Part shown: one piece after another, positions 9,335 to 54,500 of the stretch | Layout: each line of letters begins with the position of its first letter | Numbering within the stretch: the stretch's first letter is position 1 | Origin: Tubiluchus corallicola | Taxonomy: Eukaryota; Priapulida; Priapulimorpha; Priapulimorphida; Tubiluchidae | DNA length: 64,000 bases | Assembly: GCA_030141605.1 (NCBI GenBank) | Contig: JAQGDQ010000324.1 | Coordinates: forward strand, 36,001-100,000 | Direction of reading: 5' to 3' | Translations under genes and position numbers: made by a program | The notes under the pieces: generated by a model | What the model was told of the DNA's origin: nothing | Database searches by the model: none | What the model saw: the letters and a program-made list of their open reading frames with translations, nothing else

Positions 9335-9620
9335 ATATCATGATCAAGGTACAGGATACCCATGCACCATCACATGATTAAGGTAGAAGATATCCATCCT
9401 TCATCATGATCAAGGTAGATAATACCCATGCTACATTGAATATTTAAGGTAGAGGATACTCATATTTCATCACCATGATCAAGGTAAAAGATATCCATGC
9501 TCAGTCGAATGATTAAGGTAGATGATACCCACCCATCATCATCATGATCAAGGCAAATGTGAGCTTGACACTCGTTTTTCATCATTTGATCAATCACACA
9601 GAGATCGATTTAATACCCAT
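9335..9620. repeat. degenerate 36-bp ancestral repeats
   Basis: Irregular units of the form ATGATCAAGGTAGA then GATACCCATCC-like sequence and CATCATC, leading into the homogeneous 72-bp array. Confidence 0.75.
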
Positions 9621-9639
9621 CGTCATTGCCATGATATCT

Positions 9640-12409: not shown

Positions 12410-12568
12410 CTACAAGTCGCTTTGTCCGTAGAGAGCCATCGAGAAAGATTTGTAGTCATAAGCACCCGGCTCTGCTCCCGGACCGGTGTAAGGAAGCATC
12501 CGCTCCACGATGTAATCCACTTGCTCCGGTGGAATTTCTGCTTGCATGTCTTTAACTGTGATGTACGG
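12410..12568 (-). CDS. ACTN: alpha-actinin exon 23 (residues 840-891 and stop)
   Basis: 52 codons plus TAG, starting [16 protein letters not shown] and ending L-Y-G-Q-S-D-L. The terminal S-D-L is the family's characteristic end and a PDZ-type ligand. Confidence 0.96.
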   Translation of the reverse strand, partial: PYITVKDMQAEIPPEQVDYIVERMLPYTGPGAEPGAYDYKSFSMALYGQSDL

Positions 12569-27500: not shown

Positions 27501-30500
27501 GTAAGAAAAATTGAAAACTTTACCTCAATTGCCAATCTTCGTTGATGTATTTTGGACCTCAAATCATCCCAGCCATCACAGATCTCCTAAAACGAAAAAC
27601 GAAAAAGTTGCGCAAAGCAAATTACCTTGAGTGCAAAGCAACATTAGCTAAATTTAACCTAAATTGCTCTCAAAGAAGCAAACAATCACTAATAAGCTCG
27701 GCTCACAGCATAATTACAGTCACACCAAGGCCGGCCACAAAAAATTTGTTTCTGTCTTACCTCATGAGCTCAGGTGATGTCAGAAGGGAAGGAAGAAAAA
27801 ATGCTTCTTTGTTTTTTTTCAAAAAAAATTTTCCCTCCCTTCATGAGTATTTAAAATTGTATAATTATTAATTATTGTATAGTCTCTTTTTTGCATCATG
27901 AATATATGCTGCTTATTATGCTATAAGTGGCAACACTACTCAGCCGGTAATTTGGCAGAAAATTCGATACTTTTTAGTCTCCAATACAATGAGCACCATA
28001 CAAGACGGCAATCCTGGCCGAGAGTTAGCCGTGAAAAAATGTGGCCGCGTCCTACGTTCCCCGAAAGAACGATGTTATAATAATGATTGTGTTTTACATT
28101 TTAAATTAAAAAAAATGTTTTATATGACTGTGTCAAGTAAGCATACGAATGTACAAAAAAATTATAAAATTCGCGGCCGGGTGTGCGATGAAAAAATATT
28201 ACTTGGACGATTAGATGGAAACAAATTTTTACTGTCGGTCTAAACGGAAAAATTAACATGAAACAAACAACCAGAAATGACTAAAATAACTTGGCCACAT
28301 AAAATATTGTAAGCATGTATGAAGCCAAACCTTGCAACGTGCATTGATTGCGGGAGAATCGTGGTAGCCAAGCGAACTGCAAATAAAAACACATATTCAA
28401 GTGAAACTGCAACTTATGCAAGAAGCAACGTAATTCCTGTGGCTGAAAAGCATAAAAACAAGTAAAAACGTTCTCAGTTAGGTGTTCGCTCTAATATGTG
28501 ACCTAACATGGTACGGTCAATAGGTTATGTACACTTATATATCGGTTTGCCTCAAAACTCAAAAGTGTTTAGTACTGGTCGCTTCTATGCAAAAGTATAT
28601 AAAAGCTGTTGGCACTTGACTAAAATAATTCCGCATAATTGACTCTAGATACATTTTTTCTGCACATGCTTAAATAACATACGTTTGTGTGACCAATGAG
28701 CTTCATTATCTTTATATAATCTTAATTCGCTTTTGTAGGCCATAATATACGTAGAAACAATCATGTTAAGTACAGTCATTACACGCTGCTTGGTTACACT
28801 CATGTAGCCAACCAGCGGGCAGCTCGCAAAACAACAGACTGCGTCCGAAGCACGCGGGACTTTGTGGATTTTGTCTGATTTTTCTGATATCCATAAAAGC
28901 AAGGTCAGACAAACCGAGATATGAGTGTACCGTGATTTAAGTTGGTAAATTTTCAAAATTTTTGTATCCTGGCACAAAATTTCATGTAAAACATGATTAT
29001 GTTGCTAAAAATTGTTCAGTTTGTAACAGAAATATTATTTTGTACTATACTGAAATCCTGCTTTGAAATCACCAAATTTTTAAAAAGCAAACCAGAAAAG
29101 GGCACAAGAATAATAGCCTAAAGTATGAAAAATGCAGCCAGTTGACTTATTTTGAGGAAAAGTATGTTGCAATGTCAACAAATGCCATTATGGATTTATT
29201 CAACATTGTGCCCTTATGTTTTTTCTGTTGATAGTTTTCTCTATGACAGCAAACTTGCTAGTGTGAACTGCTCTGCGAGTTACTATCGACAAAAAATTGA
29301 AAACTCTCTTGACAATTGCTGAGAGTTGATTTACTGTCTCGAGTACATGCCTCACACTCTGGTGTGATCACGTGAGTTACATGGCTAGTTAACTGGCTAG
29401 TCTGAACGCTCATTACTGTCAGCAACATTCCCACAGAATTTTAAAATAAATTTCCCTGACTTTTCCCTTACCAAATATTGATTTTCCATGACCAAGGTAA
29501 GCAGAAATTGCATCACCAGTATACATATTCAAACATTTTTGTGTATGGACATTCATACATATACTGATGTATAACGTGTTGGCAAATCATTATTTTTGAA
29601 ACAGAAATCTACACTGGGAGCCTGCCATAGCAAAATTTTATTTGAAGACAATCTCTGAAAAATATTTTTTGGAAAAATATTGGTTCACGGTGATTATTTT
29701 TGCAACCCTTTCCGATTTCCCAGACTTTTTACCATATTATCTTTTTCTCTGACTTTGTAGGATACCCTGTATTTTGCAGGACTTTCCCTGACCGTAAAAA
29801 CCTTGGTTAATCCTGAGGTAAAAGGACACATTTAGGCAAGCGCAGGTAAAAACTTACTTGAGTTCATTAGCGATTGCTGTAATTTGTTCAACACGTTCTT
29901 GATGCGCCGCTACTTCGCTTTCGTAAGCTTCGTGCTTCTTTTTGTGCGACTAGGTAGATAAAAAACAAATATATTTCAAGTTACTAAACTCGCTCTTACA
30001 AAATACTAAAACCGTACTTACAAACCATAAAAAACACATATAACGGGTGGCACAAAAAATGTACCGACGTTCATACTGCACTAACATTAGAAACAGGTAC
30101 CCTACAGTTGAAATATCACAGCAGGACATGACAGTACACTAACTTTTAGCAGCGAAAGTTAAACATTTATAGTTTTAGATGTTTATAATAAAAATTTAAA
30201 TGCCGGAACAATGTCAGTTAATCATCAATTGTGTGCTTGCAAACCAAAATCGTCCACAAGTCGGCATATTTAAAACTACATTATGATGCTTGAAAGTAGA
30301 ATGCACCAATAATTTGGTCAAATGTCAATTTTTTTATAAAAACAAATGCTAAATATATTGCACTTTTATATTCTAGCATCAAATTATCAAGAAAGTGTTA
30401 AAAAAACACTAAAATTTAATTTTATAACCCTCTACGCACTTTTCTAGCTAGAAACTAGTAATGCAATTGTAAAAAACTCGTATTTTCAAACTCTGATAGT

Positions 30501-33500
30501 AGCTCGTGGAAGGAGTCATTTTCCTTAGGTTTTTTCTGTTGTCAAGCCCAGATCTTCGTCTGGAAGAGCCATCTATTAGATTTAAACAAAACTTCAATGT
30601 GCTCTTGCTAAGTCCATAGCAACCACACTTTCGTACGGTAGTTAACTGTTTTGTAGAAATGCGACGAAAAACAATGGCTAACTTTAACAGCAATTTTCTC
30701 AAGATTACGTTTTTCAGTGCATAGTAAGCACCTCAACTTCAATGTTGATTATCTCAGCTTAGAAATAACATAGAGCAATGAGCTTGGTATGAAAATGATC
30801 CTCATGAAATGGAGATCCGAAATCAGAAAGTTTCAGCACATTTTATTGTGTAGGGATGTCACGAAATTACAGAATCCGAATCTACACCGAATCTCACTGT
30901 CAAAATAATTTTCGAATCCGGATCGAAGCCGAACCTCAGTTTAAAATACTTTTCTCGAATTTGAATCTCAATGTTCAGATTGTTCTTTCAACAGAATTCC
31001 GTTTCGAATCTATGCAGTTTTGAACCAAATTATAGCAGATTGGTAAGACAGAAGTGTTTTTCATGAAGATTACAGATGACCTGTCTGAGCAGCATGTTTG
31101 ACTGTTATTCTGCAGTACTAAAGACTATACACGATCTAATCATTTTGTGACAGATTTTTTATGACTAACAATATAATGAGATCTGTTAGTCAAAAAAATC
31201 CTTGGAGTGCCTTTACCTACGCTCCATAAGTCCGAGTAATGTGAATGACAAAAAAACAAGGCAGTTTAAACCACAGCATGTGTTGTTAGCGAAAGAAAGT
31301 TCTGTCAAAGTAATACAAGAAATCTTAACATTTTTGTTGAAAAAGAAGTTAAAATCGTAATGTGATGCGTGTTTTCGCATAGGATTTGATGAAGTTGGAC
31401 ATATGCCGAAACTGAATATGTTAATGTGGGGCAAAATTATCAAAAAAAAGGCAGCAATTTCAGGATTTTTCAGGTAAATGAGCATATAATGCATTTATAA
31501 TAAAGCGCTACCGAATCGCCTCTGTTGCCAAAGCTTAACCAGATTTTTTTTCAAAAGTCTCTGCTCAATCGGGCTGGATCTAAAGCAACTTAGAACGTCA
31601 GCGAATTGAACAGGATCAAAGCTCTGATTCGGATTCGAAGCTCCGGTTCTGTCGAAGCACCGTGACATCCCTAGCCCCCGATATAATGCCTGTTCAGAAA
31701 ACCTGGTTTTTAATTTTAGAGTTTGTGGCAGTTTGGTTCACAAAAACTATGAGAATTTGGCAAAAGATACATTTACTGAAACAAAAATAAAAACCTTCAG
31801 ATCTAAAAGTTTGCTCTTGCGATAATCTTCATTCTCTAGGTAACTGAGTTTGTTCATCGTCCAATCGTCGTGACTGTTTGCTTTCTGTCTGAACTTCTTT
31901 GCAAGATGATCTAGTCGCTCCAGTCTAGGAAAAAATAGTAATCGGAGTCACATATTTTAGTTTATTTTAGTTGGCAACCCAAAAATGTCAGTGGTGTGGG
32001 AGGAAAATGTTTCTAGAGCCTTGCAAACGTTTAAAACGGATATATTTAAAGCACAAGAAAATGCTCCACTTACATAAAGCTTAAAAAATTCGTATTGAAA
32101 GTTTATGCCACTTACATACTGGCTTTTTGCATACAAAACTTACATACCAGCGTTGGCAGTAACGCTGTATAAAACATGTGAATTTTAACTCCCGCAATGA
32201 CCATTAGAAGCGGCCATCTTGACAACAGGTCATTCAAAACAAGTTTAGGTAACACCAGGTAATGTTTGAAAAAATAATCAGAATGATTCGTAGCTCACAC
32301 GTCACTAAGATTTTAAATTACTGTATCTTGTCAGTAAGATTAAAAACATGTTTTTTGGTTAGTGAGTGGTGCACCCTGGAGGTGAGTCAATGACATTTTA
32401 CCAATTGGTGAAAACATTTTAAATTACTAAGAGTTTTCTTTTCCAATTACACAAGTTCTTTCACGCATGGAAAGTTTTTGGTACATAGTTTAACATTTCC
32501 TTTTCTTCCCTTTATTCGCATTCTGCATGTATGACATCGTGTAAAGGAGCCGTCGGAACAGTATTGCTGGAGATTTAAAATGGAAACAAACAAAAAATCC
32601 TTTCAACACGAGTACGATATATGCATAAATTCGCTATAAAGTAATACAATTTTTTAAGGCCATTTTTCTGAAACCTACTTCAGGTAACCGTTTTCTTGTC
32701 CTTTAAGTTTATTTCCAAAAATATCAACACTTGTAATAATTGCGATTTTACTAGTTCATAAGGCCGGTGAACTTTATTAGAGATTTTCAAATTACAGCGT
32801 TTTGACAGCTATTAAAACTTACTCCATCACTTTTGCATAACAGAACCAGAGGTTTTTAAAAGCAAGGATGCAGTATAGTGGTCGTATTATTCAGTAAATT
32901 AATCGTGTAAATATTTTTACTCAGTAATTACAAACATGGGGTAATGATTTTCAAAAATATTTAACATAAAGCGAAGGCTGAGAAGCCGAGTGAAAAATTA
33001 ACACAGTTTGATATCACACCTCATCAATTCAGAAAGAAGCCACTCCTCAAAACCTTGCTCAGATTTCTCTAAATCCTTCCAACGATTGTTAATATCCTGC
33101 AAAGATGTTCACACATTTATGTTGCACATTCTCAAAAGTACAGCAAGTCCTCGCTTAATGACTCGCCGCTTAGCGACCGTTCGTTTTAACAATGCTAATC
33201 CAGTGGTTCTTAACCTTGTTGGAGGTAGCGAACCCCACCAGTTTCATATGCGCATTCACCGAACCCCTCTTTAGTGAAAAATAAATGTGATTTTTTTCAA
33301 ATTCAAGACATAGATGTGTTTTTTACTGGTACACAAAATGAGCCATGCATGAACATCACCTTGTTCTCAGGATTTTCTCAGGAATGAGCTTAGGATTTTT
33401 GAAGCAATCTGCATGACAGTGTTGGTGCTCTTGCAAAAGCAGGGTCATCACGAATTTACACGATAATTCAAGTGTGTCCGGACCTCCGCGGCGGAGGCTC

Positions 33501-36500
33501 TGCCGAACCCCTGAGATCGACTCACCGAACCCCTAGGGTTCGATCGAACCCAGGTTAAGAACCACTGTGCTAATCAATTAACACCTTTTTCGCATAACGT
33601 CGCATGTTTCGCGCTTTAACGATGATTTTTTTGCCTTACTTTAAACACTAATCTTATTTACAGCGCTTCTACTCTATCAAGAAGCCCGCCACTTGACCCA
33701 GATCACAATAGCATAACTAAATGGACAGCAGACAATCAGCTACAGCTATAGGCAGGCCATGATTCATTGCTTTCTCACATTTAAATAAAATTCTTTTCGA
33801 CAAAACGCAAAAGTTTCAGCTGATAAAACTATCTCTTGTTACAGTGTTAAGTGCCAAGCACTACTGACTTTGCTCCTGGAACGCAACTGAATGCTTTTGC
33901 ATTTTTCTTACGGAAAACAATGTTTCGTTTAGTGACGCTTCGCTCAACGTCGCATTTAGATGGTAGCCATTAGCGTCGTTAAGCGAGGACTTATTGTAAA
34001 TGCAAAATTGTGCATTTCGTCAAATACAGCATATACTAGAAACTTTAGCAGATATACTATAAGCATGTAATGCAGAAAATAGGCAGAGACTTATAAATCA
34101 GAATTTACTACAGCCAATAAATCATGTGATTGCAAATAGTGCAATTACAAGTTTCATTGTTGTGCTTGGCTAACTTGCTGGCCATTGAGAAATTCCAATT
34201 CTTACACATTTTGTTACAATGAGTTTTTGCAGGTAAAAACAGCCAATGGATCTATTAAGAGGGGTTCTTAAGTTTTATGATTATCACAAGATCATTTTTG
34301 CATTTTCCACATTTTTGGTAAATTTATTAAGTGTTTTAGGTTGTTTTGCATAGTAAATGAAGCATTTTTCATGGGGCACCAGTGGATTTTTTCTTGTGGT
34401 TACACTATTTGTATACTTAAAGAAAAACAGTCAGCATTTTCAAATAGCTAATGAAATATCCAACCGGAATATGTTATTTATGCAAATGCAGGACAAACTT
34501 TTGTGCGCTAATGATATTTGTAAAAAAATTGTGTAAAATTTCATGTGGCAGTAGGCCACAGCTTAGCTAGAACAATAGGAGTCCACGGTGTTTGTGACAC
34601 GCAGCTGCTATGTTCATTGTCCTGCTGTAGCTTATAACATCACCCTGCCAGCATGGGCATTGCTATGGTGACTGAGCAATTTTTTGACTGCCATCTAGGG
34701 GCGATTTAAAAAAATAACAATGCAAGTATGTAATTGCACCACTTGCAGTCGTATGTATACGTACAACTATATTTTTTCATAAATCCAACAAATTCTTTCT
34801 TAAACAAATCGTCAAAGGATTTCAGCCGTTTGTCAGGCTGTGCGCACCATGTGAAGTTGCAGTTAACAAGAAAACAATTTTCAGGTAAAAAATTCCACAG
34901 ACAAGCAGCCAAAGGGCAAAACTGGATTTAGTTTTTCTGATAAAACATTTATGGAATAAAAAACAACGCAAAAAGAAAGGTAACAGCAAACTTACACTTA
35001 AAAGTTTCCCCTCGCTCGGCATGAACAACGGCCGGTTGCTCAACCTCAGTTTCGTCTGTATGTTGTTAAACATCGTCTCCAGTCCGGCTTTCTCCTGTAG
35101 CTTTGGCGGCTTGTGCTCACGACGGTAGTCACGGAACTCCGCCTGCTTCTGCTGCAAGGCAGCCATGGTGTTGTCCGAGGTGCGGTCTTCCAGCCACGGT
35201 ATCGTCTCGTCGATCCACTTCAGCAACTAAACAGTAAGTGATTTGCTAATAACGTGTTTGTTTATGATTTTAATCGGTTCCGTAAGCAAGCTTTAATAAT
35301 TGCACAGCTTAGAGTTTTTGCTGCATATCAGATATTTCGACTCGATGCACTGCTACTACAATACCTACTGTTGCCCCCTATACCTATAATTTCATGTATT
35401 GTTAACCGTATAAGTGTAATTACACTCATACCTTGGCCTACCAGACCTCACTTTCACAGATATCGGAAAACTCAGACGAAATATGGTCCACTAAAAAGTC
35501 CCGCATACTACGGAGTGTGTCCGTTGTTTCGCGAGCTGACGGCTAGATGGCGGGCCATCACTTCGTTTACATCCCAGCAGCGTGTAACAACACGTGTAGC
35601 TTGTATGTCGGCGTGTTTCATGATTTAGAGTCAATTATGCGGAGTTATTTGAGTGAAATGCTGGCCGTTTTTTGTACTTTTGCATAGAAGCGGCCCGTAC
35701 TAGACGTTTCCGAGACAATTAGGTGATATAGCGCCCACTATATTAGCTTAGTATCGGAAAATACGGACAATCGGCAAATTCCGGCCAATGTCTCCCTGCT
35801 TTCATTCGGCAAACCGACAAACATTGAATTCAATTCGCTAATAATGGGTAATAATTTCATTATTAATAGTTAGTAATAATGGGTAGTAATAATTTAATTC
35901 ACTTATGAGTAAGCAATCTTTTGTGCACGCTTTTTTACACTGCATTACACGTTCATTAATAAACATTTCAGAGTTTCAGCAATTCATGATGACCGTGAAA
36001 AGTCAAAAGTTATTTGTGCCTTGTAACACGGGTTTGTGTGAAAGGACAACGCCATGCTTTTGTTGTTGTTGTGGATGAAGAGACGTTTATTTACACCTGC
36101 CGACTGCTACAGCATTTAGTTATGCTACTCAAATAAGAGTATCAACTCAGATTTAATTAACATTAGTCAAAAAATCCAATTTAGCTGTGAGATTATCTGA
36201 TACCGACATTTGCTAAATTGTGACAGAAAAGTTGTGTTTTGTGTTATACTGTAGAAATCTCAGTAGGGTTTCCAAGAGTAAGGTCAGGTGATTACAGTCA
36301 CGTGAGAGTACCAAGGTTCCCAGGTTATGGGCAGGGATGTTACCGAAACTGAAATATTTTTGCAAAATCAACTATTATTAAAACTGAAAGAAGAAAATTC
36401 AAAAATAAATAGGAATAAAACATTTTGTTTTTTGTTTGTCTGGTGTTACTTGTTGTGATGTAAAATTATTGATAAAAAAACACAAGGATATTTTATAGTA

Positions 36501-39500
36501 TAAAACCTCCAGTTTGATGGAGTGGCTTACAATAGAAAAATTAATGAGTTACAATGTTTTTGAATTTAAGTATTCCTACTGATTAACGTTTAAAGATCAT
36601 AATACTTCATAAAAAATAAACAAATTTTGTAGATCTTTTGTTGCCTATATTTCATAAATTATAAAATTCAACATGAATGTGTTCAAATAAATCCAAACGT
36701 GCTTTGATATTTCGGTTGATTATACCTGGAGATCCTAAAACTTCACAGTGGATATGCCGCAGTACTGAAGATATGCCACCTTGCTGTGAAAGGCACGGCA
36801 CAACTATTATTGTTTTTGTTTTATCGAACTATTTTAGCCAAGACTTTTCAACAGTTTTTGACATCTAGGAGAAAATTTTGTTTTGGTAACATCCCTGGTT
36901 ATGGGTGCAAATAAGCCTTGACCTACTGCAACTGCACGTGCAGGTAGTAAAACACTGGATCTAAAATGGTTTCTTATACTTGCATCACTGCTGTTGTTAC
37001 TCGTCATAAAGGAAGAAAAGCCAGCAGTTTGAAATTCATTACACAGTTCCAAGTTTGAGAAAAAATTTTCATTCCAACCTGACGAGGATTTGAACTCAAA
37101 ACCTCTTACATGAGTTAAGGTCAGCTAAGCTTCGCTATACAGGAGTATAATAGCATGCCAGACACATATGATGTAATCCTTAAACTAAAGCCGAAATTAA
37201 TTGCTTACGTCACTCGTCAGACTCTCGTATTCTTGCATACGTTGCTCGTTGCCCTGATTCACTGCCAGCACACGACAAATACGATTTGCCGCCGTCTCAG
37301 CCTGAAAGAAAAACCGCCATTAGCGAAAATAATGATAATAAACAATCAATAAATAAACCAATTTTGGCATTTATTAAAATTTTATATGAGCTTGTTGAAT
37401 AAATGAAATGGAGATGTCATATCTTCCATTTCAGATGCGTTCAGTTGTGACGTAGTGCACATGTTCGTGGAGCTCATGGATACGCACAGTGGTAAACTTG
37501 AATTTAATTTTCAACTTAAAATTTGACGAGCTTTTGTGTATCACACTGTACTTCAATTTTCGCTTTCACAAAAACATGCAACACTCGTGGAATGTTTGCG
37601 CTGTTCAAAATTATGTTCAGTCTCGATATCATCACTAAATGGTTTCGCCCATCGTTAATAGTTTTTAACCTATCATTTAATTACCAGAAACGTTTTGGAA
37701 TTATTATAGGTGTTAAAATGTATACTTTTTACCGTACTTCAAGATGGGATAGGATGTGAAAAATCATCCTGTTTTCCTTTAAGGTTAAAATATTGCTGTA
37801 CATGATACCTTCTGAGCACCAGCAAACGCATGGTAGTAGCAAGAGACGTAGGTCATCACGGCTCTCTCGTCCGGCTTAACTGTATTCAGCATATCTACGC
37901 ACATACAAATGAAGAACAATAATTATTGTTTGTATAGTTCTACATTTAAACTAAAATGTTTAAGAGTCTAATCTAGTCTAATTTTACAACTTGGTTGGTT
38001 CAAATTTATTAAATCAATACTCAAGACATCAGATGCTTCGCAATTTATGCAATAGGTAGTTTAGTGATGGGCAATTCTGAAATTTTGGATTGTTATTATC
38101 TTGCTCTTGTAATTTGATATCACGATTAATCCTTTGTGGCAATTTTTAGTGCTTTAGTCATATTTTTCAATGATTGCAGTGAAATATAATCTACAACATC
38201 TTCACAGCTTCCTCATTGCCTGCCGCTTTCGTACACAGAAACTATTTCTATAGGCACATACCTGCTTTTTCGTCAACTACTCTAGACCACGTCACTACAC
38301 GCGTCACATGTCAACGAATTTGGAGACCACAGTTGGCAACACTGCGGTTCACAATTGTGTGCATCGCGGAATATGAGAAAAAAGAAGAAAAAATGCAACG
38401 ATTCGGTTTATTTGTGCCAACATACTTCCTTTTAGACAGTGTGTGTATATTTTGCTCTTGATTAATAGAGTTTCTGTTCAATCATCAAATAAATTGATTT
38501 GTACAAGGTTGTAATCGCAATTAATTTGATTATCTATTAATCGCCCATCACTAAAATAGTTTATAAAAACGCAGCCACCAGTACAGCTCAGATTTACGTG
38601 CAAACACATATAAACACAGCAAGAACACATTTTAATCGCAAATATGCACAAGCGTACTAAGCAAGCAACTTTATGTGCAAAACAAAACACAATCTCCATT
38701 TTTTATTGTCGTGGTTAAGCGGGCTCGACAAAATTTGAATGTTTAAAAGACCGACTTGCCAGTGAAAAATGGGAAACTTTTACGAGAAACGTATCATATT
38801 TCGAAACAATTGATCATAAAAATTAACATGTAATAAAAAAGATATGTAAATTTTATGATATTGAAAGAGAATACCAAAATGCTACAGCATAGGCCTAATT
38901 TTGGATACATCAAGTATAATATCGGGCTAGAGCATAGACCTAATTTTGGATACACCAAGTATAATATCGGGTGGCGCAGAAAAAATGCACCAAAGTTCAG
39001 AATACCATAATATTAGAAAAACAAGTGCTGCTCTATAAAGTTGAAAATTTCAGTTTTGCATTACAATACATAGGCTTTTGGCTGCAGATGTTTTAATGGT
39101 TTAGTGGTTATAATTTATGGGTGAAAAGCTTTTGCAAACTGAAAACTTAAATACTGGAACAATGTCACCTAATCATCAATTGAAAAAGAAACAGCCACGT
39201 TGATATGCAGAGCACTTAACAGGTAGCAGCAAAACAATAAAGAAGTCAACCTGTTTACATCATAGTTTTCATCGCAGAAAATGAAATGGTAATAAAAATG
39301 TGTTGTCAAGAAAAAACAGGACTAGATCGGCTGGGTGCAATGTTGGATAAGATGCCATTTCTAAACTTACTTTCATCTTGCACTTTTACACTTTGATTTT
39401 AAAATTTAAAATGAAATAAAACTTCCAAAGGGGTACGAGAAACAAATTAATAAAGTTCGACCAAAGTAAGAATTGAACTCAAATATGCATTTGCCGCTTC

Positions 39501-42500
39501 ACTGTTAGTATACCTTCAGCGTCCAACATCTTCGGGATATCAAGATGCTTCTCTGCTACCTCAAAAGCTAAGTTCAGGTTATCGCCTGGTTGATCCTGGT
39601 AGAAAAAGCAGACTCCACAGTTAGTGTGATCACGATGCATACAACATCTCACTGTACTTGCAATTAATAGAGATTATAAATCAATCTCTCTCTCTCTAGC
39701 ACACACGACAAGCTAGTTGACGGGACACGTCAATTTGTAACGTGCGTCAATCATGCAAGAACTTGATTATAAAACTGTAGGACGACATGATAAAATTACG
39801 ATTTTGAAATCCACATGACAAATGAAATAAAAGATGCAGAAATCGATTTGCATCACAATTACAAACTCAAGCAGGTTCATCATACAGCATGCTGTAGAAA
39901 AATTCTCATTGTTTTACAATAAAAATCCCAGCAGAAACTGTTTTGTTTTTTGCAATCATTTGTAATAACTTTAACGATTAGAAATAAAACCTTCAGCTAT
40001 TTCACTATCTTGTATCTTGAGTCGGCAAATCCTGTACAATATGCGAATGAATTTTTTTTTGCAAAACCAACTACACATTAATGGTTCTTACATTAGATCA
40101 ATATGAACTGATGATGTTTAATATGAAAGAACCAAAATCTGTACCACAGAATTTGCTAATAAACGTCTGTTTTTCAGTAAATCAGGCCATTTGTACCTTT
40201 GCTTACACAAAGTCATTCGTACAATGTAAATATACATATAATACCAAAATTGTCATCATTACTTATTAACGATTCTAGTTCAAGATTATCAATTAATTAT
40301 GGAATGAGGCAGAGCCCTCAATCAAGTTTTTTGAAACCAAATTACACCGAAGAGAGAAATGTGCAAAAGTCAGTAATGGGCGTGGATTCGAACCAGTGAC
40401 TCCCGGATAACACAGAACCCTATGTGATCAATGGAGGCCTTAATTAAGTCCTAACAGCTCACTTATGAGGTTATATTACATTAAAAGATATAATTGCTTA
40501 ATTAGAAATACTGTAACGTGTATAAACGATAGTGCAGTCATGAATAATCAATTTTTTCGAAAGTCGATCGATTGTGGCATTTGACTAAGTGATCGACCAT
40601 AAATTACATGATCCATGATTGGTTGACAGAGTAAGAGCAGATTTTGAACACTTCACTACTCATTTCTGCTATTTAATTTCAGTAAGGCAAAAAATATGTG
40701 CAGCGTCAATAAGAGATAGGATAACATAAGAGATAAAATCACAGTCAAAAGCTTAACCTTCTGATTTCGTGCTGACGCACTACTGTCAGATATTATGATC
40801 GATCAATAGTATACGATCGATCAGTAGTAGATCAACGATCATTTTTAAATGTGGATGATTGATCATAGAAATGAAACAGTTTCCCAACACTAATAAACAA
40901 ACACTTGAACATGCTGGATCAGTTCATGTCATTATCATTAAATTTAAGAATTGTCTTGATGAAAAAGGGTCGTGTGGTGTTTGTGGTTATGGCAATTGAC
41001 TTGCAATCGGAAGGCACCTGGTTCAAATCCAGGTCCAATCCAAACTTTTTTCACGCTTCCTCACTTCTGACCCATCCTGGCAAACTGGTTTCAAAAATCT
41101 TATAAAAGAGGGTTTGTCCCATCTGTAATTTAATCTATTAAACATATTTGCTAAACTTAATGAATTTTACGTTAAAAAGAACACGCAGAAATTAAGATGA
41201 CAAGCAATCCCATGCGTTATTGAACATTTAAGCAGAAGTGGTTTTATTTGCAAATTAGTCGACAAGCACAAAGTCGTAAAAACTGCAAAACATATTACAT
41301 GCCATTAAAAGTCTGTAAAATGCAACAGAAAAACCAGACTTTGCAGCCAGAATAGCAAGAATGTCATCCAAGAAACAGACGACAAGTCAGATCTTTGCAG
41401 ACAGACAGCTGTTGTTGCGCATGTTAACGACAATAACATTCATAATGAAGGAAGGAACATTTTTTTACGAAAATAACTATAGCTCAGCAGCAAATAATCA
41501 CACAAATAACACCGTCATCTTTAAATACTAAAAAGCAGGGCTGGAAATAAAGTAGAAAAATTCCATCTACAATGTTCTGTTGAAGATTTCCCATAGTACT
41601 AAAAAGTATGGTTGGAAATAAAGTAGAAAAATTCCATCTACAATGATCTGTTGAAGATTTCCCATAGTACTAAAAAGTATGGTTGGAAATAAAGTAGAAA
41701 ATCTAAATTGATTTGTTGAACATTTAGTGTTCGTTAGACGTAAAAAATTGAAAGAAAAGGGAAATTTATAAGCTCCAAAATAACACAGAGTAAACAATTT
41801 GCAAAAGTTACGTCAGACGATGAAAACTGACTGGCACAATTATTGATTTTTCTACAGGTTTTCTATAGAAAGAGAAAGGCAAGGTTGTTGATTGTCGCTA
41901 CACAACAGGAAGCTATTATGACTGCATAGTTTGGTCACGCATTTAACACGAGAACGAAACCGTCTTAAACCAACCCGCGAGAGTGAGTAATAGTCGATGA
42001 GCTCCGGCCGATGCCTGTGTATGAGCGCACACAGCCCCAGACCGTTTTTCCAGCTGAAAGATACAGTGAAAGAGATAAAACAACAGTTGGTGCATGCAAG
42101 AATACAACAAGGACCACAGTGTGAAGAGCGACAATACGAGATGCACGTGAAATGGGTTTCTGTCAAGCGTTTTGGAAGACATTTTTGATTTAAATGGCTG
42201 GATTCTAAATAAAACACTGAAAAAATCTCTGATAAATGCATTCATATCTTGGTTTGCCGGACCCCGCTTTCACGGGTATCGGAAAATTCGGACAAAACCT
42301 CTGTTAAAAGTCCCGCATGTCCGTTGTTTCGCGAACTGACCTATAGTTGGCGGGCCGTGACTTTGTTTACATCACGTACATCAGTGTAGCTGCGTGTATA
42401 TCTCTACATATAAAAATATAGAATCAATTATGCGTAGTCATTTGAGTCAATTGCCGACAGTTTTTATACACTTTTCCATAGGCACATTCCATACTAGATA

Positions 42501-45500
42501 TTTTTGAGACAATTAGGCGATTAATTCTGCATTACCTTGAGTCTGATACATGACAATCTACTGTATTAGTTTACTATCGGAAAATGCGGACAATCGGCAA
42601 ATTCGGACCAACGTCTCCCCGCTTTTGTCCGGCAAACCGAGATATGAGTGTAGTTAAACACGATACCTAACTGCCTGACTAACTAGGTAACATGCTGTCC
42701 AAGTCGACCCCAAGGAAGAACTATTACGGTTTTACGTTTAAGAAATCAAAAGGAGAACTAACATTGAAAATCTATTATCGAATATTTTCAATTCTTTGAG
42801 TTTGATCTGCCTCAAAACTCGATACTTCAAAATTACTGAGAATCACAGCAGCACAATATGGATATCAAAAATATCCCGATAGATTTTAATAACCTTGCCT
42901 CTTAAACCATCTACTTTACTGTGATTATAGATAAAACGAATGCATATTGCAAATATCAGCATACGGATTTTCAAATCGGATTTAACTAAATTCAAAAATG
43001 TTGACTCAACAGTTCTAATTCAGAATATGTTCATTTGTAATTCGAAAAGTGCTACAATGTCTTTCCCGGCACAAACACCCATTTCACGTGCAATTAAAAT
43101 TAAATGCATTAAAAGTTCATGACAACAAAAGGCTGAAAACTGTGAAAGTTTTTAAGAAGCTGAAAGAACGAATGCATGTGAAGGACGATGTACCTTCCGC
43201 AGGTCATCATAATCAATAAGTTCGGGACGGTGGCGATGTATGAGGGCGCAAAATGCCAGCCCATCCTTGAAACTAAAATAAAACATCTTTTCATTTTTAC
43301 CACCGGCATTTGCATTACTGAAAAGGTAATCTCACACGCCCCAATATTATTGTTACTACATTTTCATCATTGATAAAATATGCCACAAGCGCTTAGAAGC
43401 CCCAGGTATCATAGTTTAATGGTAGAAATATTACACACGTGTCTTAAATATGATGTCAGTTTTTGGATTTCGACATGATAATCAAGGTTGTGGAGTTGGT
43501 ACATTAAACTCCTGACTCTGGCTCCGACTCCTAAAATTTTAGAAGCCCCAACTCCCGACCCCAACTCCGAGTTCTGCTTTAAATAATAGTTTGTAGTACT
43601 CTCAATATTTAGCTACAGTGGCACTCTATCACCACTCGAAAAACAGTCTAGCTGCATAGACACCAATACAAAGTGTCCCAAAATCGGAAATTGTGTATAA
43701 AAGTAAAAGTTCAAGGTAACTACTGCAGACTCCAACTCCACATCCCCTAATGATAACCATAAATTTCTTTATGTTTTTAGCTTACTGAGAACGGTTACCA
43801 CTTTAAATGAAATGGTGAGAAGTCTTGAAAGTTGATCTTCTCACAAACTTATGACAAATTATGTTGAATGAACTATTGGTCACACTTTTTGGGAATAGTA
43901 AAGTTTGGCACAGTGTGTACTAAGCAATAGAAATCACGCAATGATAGACCTAGCTAATAAATGGAAGAGCGACCAACAGGACAATCACTTCCGCGTTCTT
44001 TTATCTGTCATACTACGTCTGGCTACGTGTTCTGCTAAAAGTGCTTACATTCAGAGATTGCTAAGACAACTGTGGGACTTCAATATCTCATGTTATACGA
44101 TTACTGTTATCATTATCTGTAATAAAGAGAAAGGTGCCAGTCCTTCTACAACTATAAACATAACAAGTAGGTCTCGCTGTTGAGGGATGCATACTGGCTT
44201 GGCGCACCAAAACAGAACATCAAGGAACACAAAACAAAAACGCCAGGCCCAGCATTTAGCTGTTCGATATAAAACAAACTTGCTTACAAAAATGATATTT
44301 CTAATTATTGTTTCTAGTGCACAAAAACGAAGTAGTGATGACATAAAAGTAGTAAAAGCTCTTTGATCACAAGCAAGTGTTTTATCCACGTGAAGCAAAA
44401 ATAACGAGCCAATTACGCGAAGTTATTTCAGTGAATTACTGAAAGTTTTTATACACATTAAAATAGGAGCAGCCCTCCTATTTTGTTTCTGAGCGAATTA
44501 GGCGACTTATTCTTTTAACAGTGAGTCTAATAAATGGTGCCCACTGCATTAGCTAGTGGGTCCTTTGCATTTTAGCATTAACTGCTGGCAAAATGCCAAG
44601 ATAACGTTGCATCAATATGGCAGAAGTCAGAAACAAATAATGATTTCATCTCGTACCTCATGTGAAAGTTCTGTATGTTTACATTCTTGTAAGGAGCAGT
44701 CTTTCGTTGACACCATAACAGCAAGCCTTCTTTTGCTGTTGATTCTAGACAAATGAAAACAGAAATGATATCATCAGAAAAACCAGCATGTAAAACAACT
44801 ATATCATGAGCTATAAAACAGTTCAAGTCTGTCGCATACAAGTTGCAGTATTAGTAAGCACAGTTATACCTCTCTACCTGACTAGAAAATTTTCTGAGGC
44901 AAGAAATTTTAAGCTCTACAACATTTACTACGAGTTGATTTACAGTCTAGTGTGAACGCTTCAACCAGTTACTTTCGACACTTCTCGCGGTGACAGTGTC
45001 ACCTTGCACTTACTGTCGAGAGAGTAACTTTCGGCAAGTTTTGCTTTCTAGTCTGAACAGGCTAGCGAGTTTCTCAGTGAAAAAACTCAAGTATAAGTAT
45101 AAGTTTATTTACGATTATTACAACAAAAAATTTTAATTACAGTACATCACAAAATTGCAATATAAAAAGAATAAGCAAGGTAGAACATACAGCAATAAGC
45201 ACTATTACATCGTTACAAGATACATAAACAAAGTAAATTAAAATTAAATGAGTCAAAACTGAAGTTTGGAAATTAAATTAACCACAATGAGATAAAACTG
45301 TTCTTGCATTTCTCTGTTCCGCGTCTAGGTAAGGGGAGTTTCAAACTGTGGCGAGTACAGTATCTGGGCATCTGAACTCGCTAGTTTGAACCGCCTTAAC
45401 GACGACAATTAGGCATTCATTTAAAACATTCAAATCTTAAATTTTTCAGTTTGGCTTGAATACACTAAGACATTGCGAAGTTACTAAAAATAGTAGCCGA

Positions 45501-48500
45501 CAGATCGAAATTTCATGTAAGCATATAACATTTCTTTAGAAAGAAAATAACAGTACCAAGTTTCACTAGACAGATAAATGAGAAAGAATGTAGTTGTAAA
45601 TACTGACTTTAAACAATAGGAGCAATTTGGTGCAATTAAAGTTTTTATGATAAACAAGCATGGGTCACAAGTCATTTATTTCACATAATGATACCTTCAA
45701 TGCTGATGTCTTGTATAGTAAACCTGAGAATAATGGTCCAAATCAACCCAAGTGTCATTTTTACGTTCCCGTCAACAATTTCTGCAAAAGAGAAGGTTTT
45801 TGTTTGGTTAGGATTAATGGAGAAAAAAACCACAAATTTTGAACTTAACAATAATCAGGCATATGTTGTTGGAATGTAATAAAACTAAGGCTAATAACGG
45901 CAAGTGAACTTTGGCATTCGAAATTTGTAAGTAAATAATGAATAAGGAATTGCATTACAGCAATAATTACAACCTAATTCACAAAAGAATTCTCTTTAAT
46001 CTGTTTATAAACATGATTCCTTAGTGAATTAAGTACTAATACCTGGTAATCAATGTCTGATTAATTATCATTATTTTTCACTTTGGAATAGAGTTGAAAT
46101 CCAGTATTTAATGGCACAACCTACTCAACGCGATGTTTGAGATGAGCTACCCTCTGAGATGAGCCACTGAACTGGCAGCTGTGCCTCGGCCACATTTGAA
46201 TACATAATTACCGAGCAGTCCTCGCTCAACGAGCTCAGAGCAAGCATTGAACCTACATGGGCACTATCCACCGACCAGTCTCGGTGTGGCTTAACTTCAG
46301 TCGAGAAGCACGCACATGCGCATGACCACTCATGTATGAACAGCGTGTGCCCACATTCACTCATCAGGCTTAACTCTATTTTTGTGAAAGATAGGTATTG
46401 GCCATTCTTCACTACATTTTCTGACAGTAGCAACAGAGCGACTCGCATGTTAAAATGTTAAAGTGGCTCAGACAGCATTAGCAGACAGATGGCTAGAGAG
46501 CAAGAAATATGTGCTTTAACTATTAGGAAACCGATTACAGCACGTTCCAGCATTTCTACATATAAAGACAGATTAATTCCTTGGTCCCATTACAAGATTG
46601 TCTTATTAAATTGTTGTGTTTCAATGACAATTCTAAACGATTTGATGATAATTTTAAACGATTCGACATCCATCATTGACACAAAAAAATCACAGACGGA
46701 TTCATTGAAGGTAAAGTTTTATGTTTTCTTTATGGGTTTTACCATCAGTGCATCAATGACAAATACCTGTTTGTTGTTTGAATTTCTTACAAATCATAAA
46801 CATGACAACCCACCGTGTCTGTTTTATAAATACAAATTCATATCATCTTGAGTACTAAACAAAACATTTGTTAAACCAGTGCTATAAAACACCTATGCAC
46901 AACTAACTTGATTAGTTCATCGGGTAACTTACCTTCAGCACCAATAGAAACTAGGTACACGCCCTTGCTGGCGATGAAGTCCAGAGCTTTGTTGACGTTG
47001 GCTATTTTGTGGAAGCGCATTTTACCCTTCTCCGGCTTCGGCAGCTGTTCCCCGGATATGACTTCCAGGAGGAGCATGAGTTTGAGCCCGTTACAGAAGT
47101 CCTGCCCGATGTCCTCGATCTGGGTGCCCGCCTTGCGTAGATGTGAGTTGCACCATGCTGTGAATGTCTGAAGAAAAAACAGATTTTTGATTATCTGGAC
47201 CGAGTACTGGTCACATCAACTGCTGTTTTGTACTTATTATAACTTATTTTGAGTCTCGCATGATTAGCATACAGCAAACTGTTACTCCTTCAGGAAAACT
47301 CCAAATCAACCAGTATGGAATTGGATTTTGGATTTTACAGAATTGAACTGGAACTAGTTACTATTTATTAGATTAATTTTTGTGGGTTTACAGGTAGTGA
47401 CGACTGACCACATATGCATTACTGCTAAGCATTACCAAATCGTTAACGCAGGTTGGCATGTGTCGCTAGATAATTCAGTAATGGAATGCATGAGTGAAAT
47501 ACTCGATTGTTTCCACAGTCCACATGCTGACAAGCAGACTTAAATGCAACTAGAAAACATGAGAAATGAATCAGACATTAAACCGTATAACGATATTTTA
47601 TCAAACCCACGGCAACGATCGAGCAATGCTTGTCAAATTGCTAATATATGGGGCACGATCTAGCGACACATTGCTAATACATGGGGCACGATCTAGCGAC
47701 ACTTGTCAACATACGGGTAATGATCTACTGATGCTTAGCAGCACATGGTCACCACTAGTAAAGCCACAAAACTTTAATGACTATATGTAACTAGTTCAGG
47801 TTCAACTTTGTTGACTTGGAGATCTCAATCCTCAGAGGTTGACTTACAGTTCTTAGATAAGTTTCATAATTAATATAAACCTTTTCAGTGAAAGATAAGT
47901 TCATATAAAAAAACCATCACTTCTAAGTCCATAACAACTGATCAACTTGTGTTCACACTGTTGAACAAAAACAACAAAACAAGTACGTTCAGGCGTCCTT
48001 TGCTACATAAAAACATTGAAACCATAAAGCAAGCTAATGCATCTCCTTAATGCCATAGAGATGTGTTTTTGACGGCAATTGACTGGAATTTGAAACTGGC
48101 TCACAGGTGCAAACGAGCAAATATCTTAAAGGACAAGAAAAGGGGTACCTGAAATAAGTTTCAGAAAAATCGCCTTACAAATTATATTACTTTATAGCAA
48201 TTTTATGCGTATATCGTACTCGCTTTGAAAGGAATTTTTGTTTGTTTTCCTTTTAAATCTCCCACAATACTCTTCCGACTATGCCGTTGCATGACGTCAT
48301 ATATACACAATGTAAATCAGGAGAAGAAAAGGAAATGTTAAACTATGTCCCAAAAAACTTTCCATGCAAAGTTATATTACTTAGCATTTCGCTTACATGT
48401 GTGAAAGACTTATGTAACTAGAAAAGAAAATTATTAATTATCTAAATGCTTTCACCAATTGGCAAAATGTTGCTGACTCACCCTCAAGGGTGCACCAGTA

Positions 48501-51500
48501 ACCAAAAAACCTATTTTTAATCTTATTGACAAAACACAGTAATTTTAAATTTTATTTAGTTAGTGACGTGTGCGGTACGAATGCTTTGATTATTTTTTCG
48601 AACTTTACACAATGTTATCTAAACTTGCTTCAAATGTTTCAAAATGGCCGCGTCTAGTTTGAGTTTAAATTTACATCGCGGGAGTTTAAATTTACATGTT
48701 TTATACAGCGTTACTGCCAACGCAAGTCCTGCATGCAAAAGGGCAGAACGAATGGGTATAAAATCTCAAGACAATTTTTTGAGCTTTATATAAGTGGAGG
48801 GTTTTCTTGTGCTTTACCATCTTACTTCAAACTCATACTTCAGGTTTGCTTTTGCCTTTGCCTTGAGAAATAACAGTTCACACTGTCAGATGTATTTGCT
48901 TTACCACCTGATTCTAATAAGTGGCAGCCTTGCTAGCAATATTCTCCAGTATCATGCAAATATTTGACATAGCAATGTTACATACATTTATGTATCTTAT
49001 ATACATATCAACTCACTGTATTATACCAATTAACAAATATTGAAAACATTAACAAGCATTTAAATAAATATTAATGAATATTGTGTTTCAGCAAAACTAT
49101 ATTAAAAGACAAAATTTGCACAAAAGCAATTCCAAATTATTAATAACACACAAAACTTTCTTATTATAGAAAAAAATTAATATATATTCGTATAACAATT
49201 AGCTATCTTATTGCAGTAAAAGCTAGGTAAAATCTAGTTAAATAAGAATTATGCTGACTTAACTGCTGAAATACGGTTACTCCAACCACATACATGTGTT
49301 TTATGTAGGTTGTCACATATTGTATTACAGAAAAAGAAAAATACACAAGGGATGGGTGCAAAAGTACAAATATGAATGGAAAAACTCCTCAAGGCCAGTA
49401 AGCGTGGCTTACAAATCAGCCAGTACAATTTTTCTTTCATGCAAAACTGAAGCTGGGGCATCAGTTGAACAATTGCACCATGTAATATTCAGATATTTAA
49501 AAGACTCACATGAATAATCACACTATGTAATATTCAGCTATTTAAAATACTCACTTGAATAATCACACTATGTAATATTCAGCTATTTAGCTATTTAAAA
49601 GTCACTTGAATAATCACATCATGTAATATTCAGCTGTTTAAAAAACTTACTTGAACAATTGCACCATGTAATATTAAGATATTGAAAAGACTCACTTGAA
49701 TAATCACACTATGTAATATTCAGCTATTTAAAATACTCATTTGAATAATCACACTATGTAATATTCAGCTATTTAAAAGATTCACTTGAATAATCACACC
49801 ATGTAGTATTCAGCTATTTAAAAGATTCACTTGAATAATCACACCATGTAGTATTCAGCTATTTAAAAGATTCACTTGAATAATCACATCATGTAACAGT
49901 CAGCTATTTAAAATACTCACTTGAATAATCACGCTATGTAATATTCACCTATTTAAGACTCACTTGAATAATCAAACCATGTAATATTCAGTGAGTTGTG
50001 TTACTATGTGCATAAACTATGAACACGTGAAGGTAGAACGACAGTGATGAATGTATAATCTTAGCCTACCCACAAAAAAACTATAATCACCAGATGCCCC
50101 TATTATAAATTTTTACAAGCATTTATTAGTAGTCAAGACGTTGAACTCGTATCTCAGAGATCGGGGTTCTAACGCAGGTTCAAATAGTATTTTCTCACAT
50201 TAAATTTTCTTTCTGTTAACTAAATGTGCGGCCCGGATAGCAGAAGGCCTGGGTTCGAGTCCCAAAACTTTTTTAGATTTTCTAATTCAGTAATTCAAAT
50301 AAAATAAAATAAAATAAAATCAAAAACTTATTATTTTTCCCAACACATAACGTTAGTTAAAATTTAGTAACGTATATAGCCTCACGTGGCAAGAGCCCGT
50401 CAAATGGGAAGGGGTGACGAAGAAGATACATTATCGAATCAGCCACCCCAACTCAGTTCTGTTTTTCGCATGGAGTGCCGACGATCACTAATCAAAAATA
50501 ATAATTAATATTAATATTATTACGTATTAATACGTAAATGAATTACGTACTTGTTTTCACCTATATAACATTAAGCATATAATATATAATTCAGTACTGA
50601 ATAAATAATTTCAAGCAAGTTACACCAGGAAAACTGTGTGTATGTTATTTTTCTCCGCAAACACCTCATATGCTTTTACTGTGATGAATACACTAGAGAA
50701 GAAATCACCTAAACAAAACTGGGTTAAACTAGCAAATCATTTTTAAATATCTTACTCGGCAGAAAAGGTAAAAAATCTAGACTCTAAATGCGTGGTCAGG
50801 CATTGAACAATCTATGCCTAAGAATTGTGAGAATAAGGAAAGGAAATACAGTCAGCAAGTCTGCAGCTGAAACAACAATAATTCCAGGATACAGAGGAAC
50901 GTACTTTGAATTGTGGACATACAGCATTGCACGATCAATTTTCCTGTGACCAAGCCTGGCAAAACCACGAATATTAGCTCCATTAGAGAAAGCTTAACAC
51001 CCGTATGCATAATCATTAATCAGACCAATCTGATTTAATTCACCCATTCAGGGGGAGGAAAATTAACAGTTTGGGGTGACAGTAATTTGAGGAAGCGACG
51101 CGGATAAACCTTTGATCACGAAGTTTACGTGTTAATGACATAGGTGACACAGTGTTTATATAATTTGCAGGTAAGAGGCATGCATGTGGGTCAACGCTCT
51201 TTAAACTTCACAACACTGGCTTTACTATGTTCATCTGCTGATAATGTGCAGCACAACAGAGCCTCAGAACCCCGGGGGGCAAAGCCGGCGGATTTGTTTA
51301 ACGTTGTTCTTTAAGAAACGGTAATGGTTTGGGTTTGACTGATCTCTGGCAACCATTAAGTGCAGCAAGGGCAGTGGCCACTGATAAATTACAACGTTAT
51401 TTTGCTGTATGTCGAGACACCAACGATCTCAAGCAGACTACACAATTATTGATTTTCTGAAACCAAACTGCACCGAAGAGAAGAAAATACGAAAAGCGCC

Positions 51501-54500
51501 GGATTTGAATCAGCGACCTTTAGATCATAAATCCAAAAACATGACAACTGGACCACACAGCACCTTGTGATTGTGACGAATCTAAATTCGATCCTAATCG
51601 GTCAAAACTAATGTAACTGTTAGTTTACTAACACAATCTTGAGTAATTACTGACTAATTAGATTAAGTTTTGCAATTAATTTAGTGTCTAGAATAACTGA
51701 AAGATAATTAATTAATTATTTTGTCCTAATCACAAAACCTTATGTGGCCTAGAGGTTATGACATTGGACTTGTAATTTAAAGAAACATGGTTCAAATCTT
51801 GGCTTTTCACATTTCCTTTTGGAAAAGTTTGGAAACGTAAGGACAAAAAACTCAGAATTAAAATGGTTGAAATTTCTTTGAATAAAATTACTGATATTTA
51901 TAAAAGGATGTAAAATCAGTTTTAAAATTCATACAATTTACAGCATCTAGTTATTGAAAAAAATGATATGCAGGTCTATGTCAAAAGTGTAAAAAATTCA
52001 CACATTAATTCAGCAATTTCGAAAATGATTTTGTCAAAATTGTAATATAACCTGTTTACCCTTTCTATTCTTACACACAAACACTAAAAAATTCTGCCGC
52101 CAATCTATAATAAACATTTCGTCCATTGGCTTAGCATAATAAAATGTGTCACCGTATGCGTGATGCAATGTTAAAACTTCAACAAATTCTGTTTACAAAT
52201 TCTGCACATGTAAAGAAATAAATAAAGGTGTGATGTGTGACAAATGGGCCATTTTGTGACATACTTATTGCTAATAATGACGCAAATTCATAAAGCAAAG
52301 GTAATGGGTAATAAATTTTATTTAACAATGGCAATTCGGTGGTGAACTTTGCACACATTCTCTGCACTTAAAAGCCATAATAGGTACGTTTTACTTTTGA
52401 ACCAAATTACACAATAATAAATGCCTTAAAATGTGTTTGCCAATGATCTCAAACTAATATGCAGTAAGACGAGTGCAGAAGATGAATAAAAAATCATAAA
52501 TCATAAATGTGCCCAAAAAAAATTTAAATCATATTTTGCACAGAAAAAGAAAGACGAGCCTAATTCTACAGAGAAAGATTGTATAGAGATACATCAAATG
52601 CACATTAAGTGACTGAATGTATCAATGCTGAACACGGTGGTATTATGAGTATGAGTCACAACAAAGGCATACAAACATTGAGCAACCTTTGTGCCGGAGT
52701 TTGTTTAATCAAAGCACACTTACATCTAACCGGTAGCGCTTCAGTGGTGCAGATGGCGGAGACCAAACTCCCAGCCAGATACTCATTACATCACTATATC
52801 TATGACAAATGCTGACATATTAATCCAACTGATTGATTTCCATGCATGTTCCACTGGACTGTTCCAATAACATGTTCCATTATTATCCACTGGATTGACA
52901 GACAATACTAAGCACATTCCGAAACTTTGAAAAAAGCTCTAGGTCTGCTAAGGCTCATAACATCGAAAAAAAGATGGCTTTAATTTCCGTAACGGAATTT
53001 CTGGGAAGCTCACCATTCGGTAGTTTGCCTCTCACAAAAGAAAATGCAATATCTATCAAAGAGAAGGTTGCTAAAGAGAACCAAGAGCACGCAGACAACA
53101 AGAAAAAGATGAAGAAACATTCAAAAGCTCGCAAAAACTAAAAGAGAGATGAACAAAGGTCCACGATTCCACAGGATGATTCCAATTCCACCCAGTCACC
53201 AAGAACTAGCAAATCTCTTTCCCAAGTGCTCATCAAAAACCAGCAAACAGATAACACAATGCCTGACGTCCTCATTTTTCTGACTAGACCCGGCACATTG
53301 CCACCTCTGACTAGATGAATTCAGGACTCTTGAAAAAAGCGAAGCGACACAAGGAAATTGCAAATCTAAAATAGACTAAATCTAGGACGGTCACATGAAC
53401 GTTAGACAAGCAAAAGGCTTCGCTAATAATATTACAAAAATAAAGGCAAGTCATAGATAACGGTTCACACGTGCACTCACTCATGCTTCAAACCTAGCCG
53501 ACGAGTTCTTTTCCTAAAAGAAAATATTGTTGCTAATCTGAAAAACTCAAACTGTAAAAATACATTTGAATCGTTGTGGCACCATCCTATTTTTGGAAAG
53601 GCAAAAATGTAGAAGAAACAAATTAATAACTGGCCAAGAAATCAAATCATTAACACGAGTTATAATGACATTTTAAAATTCTTATTAGAATTTATTTATT
53701 ATTATGACCTTGCATCGATGGAAGACAGCACACACACGTAAGCAGGTTCCTCAATTTATTAACTTCAAGCACATCACCAGATTGCAAAACCTACTGCCAA
53801 TCTAATCTAGTTGACTATATCATCGAAGGTCAGCTACAACATCAAGTCTCTTAGAGGAGGTACCCCCATTACTACGTCTCCTCTTCGGCTTCGATGTTGC
53901 GTCTTACATTTTTCTTTGGAAATTCTTAATTTTTTTCCTTTGGGTCTCTCTTAACTTTGCATGCTTCATGAAAATGTTGCTTTCCTGTCAACTTCCAGAA
54001 GAATAGTAACAGATACTTTTTCCCACCAGCAAAGTGTGAGGTAGTTATAATTCAATCTTTAAAGAGCGGTATTCAAATTTTCACTTTGAAACTGCAACCC
54101 ATTACTTTGAGGGCTGTTCTCCTTACTTGGTAGAATCTATCACACAAGTTTGGGGTGATTTTGTATGTAATAACTGATTTCCGCAGCAAATTTTCCGATT
54201 TCAGAAATACTCGTTTTACTATATGTCATTGTTATCAATCTTACTGAAGTTAAGCCTGGTTAGTGGTTTTTTGTAGATTATTCTTAAACTACTTATAGCT
54301 CTTACACAAGCTATCCATTTGACATCAGTTATTTCATTTATTACAATGCTTTTTTTGTAAAAGTAGATGGCACTTTAGGGATGGCAGACTAGATGACCGT
54401 TTTGGTGTTTTGCCATCCCGGCATTCTTTAAATATTGTTGAACGTGCTATTATAGTTTTTTGTGTTTATTTGCAAGGCAAACAAATGAATCATTCTTATC

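Follow-up and report, generated by a model that had tools for sequence, protein, structure and literature searches.

A predicted mutually exclusive exon pair in the CH2 domain of two Tubiluchus corallicola alpha-actinin genes, with a candidate RNA stem in the intron between the copies

Introduction

Actin filaments are cross-linked mainly by alpha-actinin. Tandem duplicated exons that are swapped for one another are already known as a kind, and in one of the closest described systems, FGFR2, the mutually exclusive exons IIIb and IIIc are separated by an intron holding the IAS2-ISAR stem, whose exact sequence, in the account of Muh et al., reportedly matters little. The exon pair described here is a further case of the kind. 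It lies in an alpha-actinin gene within a stretch of 64,000 nucleotides (nt), called the window below, from the priapulid Tubiluchus corallicola (assembly GCA_030141605.1, contig JAQGDQ010000324.1, positions 36,001 to 100,000 of the forward strand). A counterpart of the pair is present in the other alpha-actinin gene of this genome.

Competing RNA structures have also been described at such exons, with outer introns pairing with inner ones and with bidirectional schemes (PMC6071210). For alpha-actinin itself, a review (PMC4550062) describes two variants of vertebrate exon 19, 19a and 19b, and splicing within the actin-binding-domain part of Drosophila Actn, and it states that invertebrates generally carry one alpha-actinin gene. 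Human ACTN4 has exons 8 and 8' of equal length, whose swap amounts to N249G, A251L, and S264C, and the focal segmental glomerulosclerosis mutations K255E and T259I lie in the same ACTN4 exon (PMC7052930 and PMC4539665). We found no published description of a swap at the CH2 exon treated here in the literature searched, a set that left out the main 2010 evolutionary paper.

Results

The window carries its alpha-actinin gene on the minus strand, and the exon encoding the central part of CH2 is present there as two adjacent copies, which, as far as sequence can tell, are very probably a working mutually exclusive pair. The features on which the argument turns are as follows, in window coordinates.

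12413..59161, minus strand: whole alpha-actinin gene (guide matches and gene model)
44657..44744, minus strand: exon 4, common to both forms, ending ..NFHM plus AG (gene model)
43194..43272, minus strand: first twin exon, 79 nt, completing a Ser with the AG of exon 4 and encoding a 26-residue CH2 piece
43077..43092, minus strand: 5' arm of the stem, TGCACGTGAAATGGGT, 101 nt past the donor of the first twin
42142..42157, minus strand: 3' arm of the stem, ACCCATTTCACGTGCA, 88 nt ahead of the acceptor of the second twin
41975..42053, minus strand: second twin exon, 79 nt, completing a Ser with the AG of exon 4
39514..39595, minus strand: exon 6, common to both forms, whose last base, G, begins a split codon (gene model)
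37809..37894, minus strand: exon 7, single, counterpart of the vertebrate alternative exon 8 (gene model and ACTN4 comparison)

The initial annotation had described two 79-nt exons 1140 bases apart, with intact splice sites and equal phases, and its coordinates and figures were right, as was its count of 18 identical and 8 different residues out of 26. Both introns flanking each twin have GT-AG ends at the twin. In transcription order, the first twin (43272-43194) follows ..ttttattttag and ends in AAG before gtacat, and the second (42053-41975) follows ..tatctttcag and ends in CGG before gttggt. They share an entry phase, each finishing the serine begun by exon 4, and both leave in phase 0, into exon 6 at 39595. 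A genome search located the second alpha-actinin gene, hereafter the paralogue, at 252818-273781 of contig C24; it was modelled over 19 exon slots and shares 294 of its first 357 modelled residues with the window gene. It too has twin exons of 79 nt each (262217-262295 and 262793-262871), in the corresponding position and with the same phases, 497 nt apart and differing by 3 residues. Both genes thus contain adjacent homologous exons of one length and equal phases, that length being nonsymmetric with respect to the reading frame. That use of both twins, or of neither, destroys the frame had also been claimed, and an early stop does follow: with neither twin it falls in the next exon, and with both it falls in exon 6 of the window gene, whereas the paralogue already meets it within its second twin. 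Neither a third copy nor a duplicate of any other exon was found in the slots scored (17 in the paralogue and 17 in the window gene, apart from exon 1, the last exon, and unmodelled exons).

The substitution pattern indicates that both copies have been kept. Of the 27 third codon positions, 21 differ between the window twins, against 12 of the 52 remaining positions. The drift of a dead copy was simulated for the two twin pairs, in both directions and at two levels of divergence (that observed at third positions, or half of it), and in each of these 8 settings the observed open frame together with at least the observed identity was reached in 0 of 4000 runs, even though the simulation ignores indels and splice-site loss and is therefore lenient toward the dead-copy idea. 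Because third-position divergence is high, first- and second-position divergence is low, and the simulation never reproduced the twins, their retention is more than chance. If one copy were nonetheless a dying, unused exon, poor splice sites would be a sign of it. We ranked the sites of the twins against the 34 donors and 33 acceptors of both genes. The sites of the first twin are midrange (acceptor above 12 of 33 others, donor above 10 of 34), but the donor of the window gene's second twin is poor, with only 2 of 34 others scoring lower, which is a weak point of the case, and the acceptor of the paralogue's second twin scores below all 33 others. Weak splice sites fit regulated exons, yet they could equally mean little use. 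Set against the neutral runs and the retention of both copies in both genes, decay of one twin is very improbable, and we rejected a dead exon on the simulation. Phase, selection, and the matching arrangement in the paralogue together bear out the suggestion of mutually exclusive CH2 twins with which this analysis began.

A further suggestion, that vertebrate ACTN genes have their alternative exon at this place, did not survive comparison with ACTN4. Position 255 of that protein could be placed within ..IVNTARPDEKAIMTYVSSF.., where PDB entry 2r0o has E and entries 6o31 and 6oa6 have K; we take 2r0o to be the K255E protein. Counted from 255, the swapped N, A, and S fall at 248, 250, and 263, one below the printed numbers and with the same spacing. 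The stretch they span matches window exon 7 (37894-37809), which puts the human exon 8/8' swap roughly 50 residues beyond the twins, two exons downstream. The suggested match with a vertebrate pair is hence not observed, as the ACTN4 swap stretch corresponds to exon 7 and not to the twins. Identity of the two pairs had some appeal, given the same gene family, the same domain, and an equal-length exon pair in each; with the human swap mapping to an exon that is single in both priapulid genes (exon-slot scoring gave no second copy of exon 7 in either), we give this identity practically no credence, and exons 8/8' were ruled out as the same pair by the position of the swapped residues.

At the protein level, the second version of the window gene carries F to W and D to N at the start of the segment and YSLSR in place of DDLRK, as the initial annotation stated, and two of the eight differences, A-F to G-L, had gone unmentioned there. 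Net charge moves from 0 in the first window twin to +2 in the second, and from +3 to +2 in the paralogue. Judged by the CH fold, the twin segment would comprise the central helix of CH2 and the following loop, outside the main CH1 actin contact, and the exchange would alter the beginning of that helix and the loop. The swap, which the initial annotation supposed might tune actin or lipid binding, would be expected to tune the opening or stability of the actin-binding domain and not to switch binding on or off. The segment had been placed just after the phosphoinositide-binding stretch; if that stretch ends at ..FHTSWK in ACTN2, the twins would instead overlap its last residues.

Both genes have a perfect inverted repeat inside the intertwin intron, 16 bp long in the window gene (43092-43077 pairing with 42157-42142) and 14 bp long in the paralogue (262388-262401 pairing with 262659-262672). 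As in FGFR2, complementary arms thus lie within the intron separating the two exons, and their distances to the twins, after the first and before the second, are 101 and 88 nt in the window gene and 92 and 120 nt in the paralogue. We scanned the first against the last 150 nt of the 33 introns of at least 240 nt in both genes, leaving out four shorter introns and two beside unmodelled exons. The longest perfect pairings were the 16 and 14 of the intertwin introns, against at most 10 in the other 31, and in 300 shuffles of each intron, perfect pairing never exceeded 12. When twins and intron were folded together, the arms paired with probabilities of 0.83 to 1.0 in the window gene and 0.70 to 0.98 in the paralogue. 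In duplex energy, the paralogue intertwin intron is the clear leader at -68.5. Between exons 4 and 6 of the window gene, no alternative partner comes close to the stem pairing (-43.2 versus -26.9 for the next), and the energy of the stem is matched by 0 of 1957 comparison windows elsewhere. Each arm sequence occurs exactly twice in the 343.5-Mb genome, at its own two arms, and the 101-nt surroundings of all four arms are single copy; on these grounds, a transposon end was ruled out as the source of the stem. From these properties, the intron stem is likely to be functional.

Other features of these introns deserve mention. The zone free of AG before the acceptor of the window gene's second twin is 104 nt long, against a maximum of 87 in 33 others; before the second twin of the paralogue, it is 46 nt and ends short of the 3' arm. 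Short words common to both twin clusters number 12 11-mers and 4 12-mers, where shuffles give 11.9 and 3.4. Words resembling RBFOX, CELF, and branch-point motifs occur in the clusters at near chance frequency; TGCATG, for example, was seen 2 times versus 2.0 expected in the window cluster and 0 times versus 1.2 in the paralogue. Within the loop of the window stem, there is also a 12-bp inverted repeat (42251-42262 with 42627-42638, about 365 nt apart) with the look of a small transposon. The intron after the paralogue's second twin (C24:263346-264790) contains tandem repeats and inverted copies with arms of up to 20 nt, unrelated to the stem.

As to age, we consider a single origin of the pair, before duplication of the alpha-actinin gene, somewhat the better supported account from sequence, because place, phase, stem layout, and an R/S difference near the end of the segment are common to both genes. 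Under a codon model, the tree that joins first twin with first and second with second has an approximately unbiased (AU) test value of 0.97, the other two trees having 0.03. The Kishino-Hasegawa (KH) test gives 0.2, so that the alternatives are not rejected, and two nucleotide models fail to separate the three trees. The competing account, in which the exon was duplicated independently in each gene after the split and both pair and stem arose twice, is less probable but must be taken seriously: no pair has diverged less at third positions than the paralogue twins (12 of 27 differ, compared with 14 to 21 in the other pairs), these twins share a His, and the arm sequences are unlike between the genes. 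It must reckon with the codon-model result, qualified as above, and with the endings of the twins, first copies closing with LRK and second copies with LS[KR] in both genes. Under a single origin, the similarity of the paralogue twins would perhaps reflect later gene conversion in that gene.

The identity of the two genes is clear from their domain content. The window gene, about 59161 to 12413, runs from its N-terminus through ..LYGQSDL and a stop, with two CH domains, four spectrin repeats, and EF hands in order, and its span of about 47 kb compares with about 21 kb for the paralogue. Guide residues 4-892 were matched along the paralogue and also in the window gene, where gaps at guide residues of about 462-500 and 599-627 are filled only by three unmodelled open frames near 28.4, 27.6, and 20.7 kb. 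A search of the genome with the C-terminal piece gave strong matches at the two alpha-actinin loci only; two weaker matches, 47% and 23% identical, have the appearance of different EF-hand genes. The top PDB matches of the CH2 piece are alpha-actinins. PDB entry 7aw8, a plant (malletwood) alpha-actinin domain that appears to correspond to PMC8329775, matches the window CH2 about as well as human proteins do, and the possibility of an animal contaminant in the plant assembly would be worth a check. No contaminating animal contig with an alpha-actinin gene was confirmed (36 pattern matches in genome contigs, 81 in viral contigs). Searches with a COX1 profile and with the mollusc haemocyanin domain, the latter lacking a working control, gave no match and point to no lineage.

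Elsewhere in the window, a 515-codon open frame in a single exon (61893-63437, plus strand) resembles by eye a rhodopsin-type seven-helix receptor, and part of an open frame at 4455-4835 (plus strand) resembles by eye the end of a protein kinase domain. Tandem repeats at 9526-10713 and 24315-24920 have long open frames on both strands, which look like repeat artefacts.

Discussion

Overall, the best explanation of this locus is probably a mutually exclusive exon pair enforced by the reading frame and by an RNA stem bridging the intertwin intron. Tandem duplication would have affected the exon that encodes the central part of CH2, leaving a pair of which one copy enters each mature message, and two layers may then enforce the choice. 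The first is the frame: messages with both copies or neither run into the early stops described above and would presumably be degraded. The second would be the stem, which on folding would put away the middle of the intertwin intron and, by analogy with FGFR2 IIIb/IIIc, may gather intronic control elements, bias the choice, and hinder joining of twin to twin. In the window gene, the 3' arm lies inside the 104-nt AG-free zone and could cover the branch point as well, whereas the paralogue zone stops before the arm. If the stem favors one copy, that copy is most likely the first, although overall we put the claim that it favors the first copy at slightly less than even odds.

Several observations weigh against this explanation or parts of it. 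The swap in the paralogue, at just 3 residues, is unlikely to have a large effect on the protein. In duplex energy, the window intertwin intron has a bare lead, at -56.9 versus -56.8 for intron B18. The paralogue 5' arm has rivals to its 3' arm (-34.4), at -32.7 beside the arm and at -31.2 at 262997, downstream of the second twin; among 2224 unrelated windows, 1 beats -34.4 and 5 reach -31.2. Inverted repeats of at least 14 bp do occur elsewhere in the genome, in 8 of 3109 pairs, and a second genomic scan of 12603 pairs gave 396 positives, consisting of 346 artefacts of N runs and 50 real ones. The arm sequences show no likeness between the two genes. Lastly, the low third-position divergence of the paralogue twins suggests a later separate duplication, or gene conversion, in that gene. 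Several of the 50 real positives have transposon-like, repeated, or simple sequence. The case for the paralogue stem stands on its perfect run and its location, not on energy.

Such points raise the question of whether the exons are truly mutually exclusive but the stem is incidental, with exclusion achieved through the frame, decay of wrong messages, and protein regulators. The frame logic would be enough by itself in both genes, and the weak sites (the donor of the window gene's second twin and the acceptor of the paralogue's) would suit control by proteins. One TGCATG, an RBFOX-type motif, lies near the second twin at 42098, although the motif counts are those of chance. What this account leaves unexplained is that each paralogue has a perfect, single-copy stem in a corresponding position, with no equal in the 31 other introns tested, and we judge the account unlikely, if well short of negligible. 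Two other routes to exclusion were rejected. At 1140 and 497 nt, the intertwin introns are longer than steric exclusion by a short intron would allow, the AG-free zones being 104 and 46 nt, and none of the four donors (gtacat, gttggt, gtcaga, and gtaatc) is U12-like when compared by eye with the RTATCCTT consensus, which speaks against U2/U12 incompatibility.

In the explanation that we prefer, pair and stem probably both predate the gene duplication, the sequence of the stem having since been replaced and its pairing kept. A stronger version, in which bridging double-stranded RNA is an ancestral part of the pair, set by place and pairing, that survived the gene duplication despite turnover of its sequence in one copy or both, is speculative, and we think it rather unlikely. 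If it were true, such a stem could mark any two-exon swap cluster, with FGFR2 as a single instance of a wider rule. The paralogues constitute a natural test in this regard, with a stem at the same place in different letters, as expected of a structure kept for its shape, and they make a role of the stem in one-or-other splicing directly testable. It is also of interest that both genes have retained a swap in the CH2 core, a site unlike the known human one.

The human ACTN4 8/8' pair is like the twins in being an equal-length pair in the actin-binding-domain part, used either/or, with few changes (three, as in the paralogue), but it encodes the end of CH2 and the linker, two exons downstream. 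Vertebrate exon 19a/19b and fly Actn are likewise instances of alternative splicing of alpha-actinin, exon 19a/19b (EF hand) belonging to the opposite end of the protein. Mutually exclusive exons with long-range pairing in their introns also recall the docking sites and selectors of Dscam-type clusters. The window gene differs from these in having no convincing second partner competing for one arm (-26.9 versus -43.2); in the paralogue, the site at 262997 (-31.2 versus -34.4) could be such a partner. No convincing competing partner of the kind described in PMC6071210 was found here. FGFR2 IIIb/IIIc is an unrelated gene, and the function of the stem here is predicted from sequence; in both systems, nevertheless, two exclusive exons are separated by an intron with a long-range stem in it, and the unlike arms of the two priapulid genes fit the sequence independence of the FGFR2 stem.

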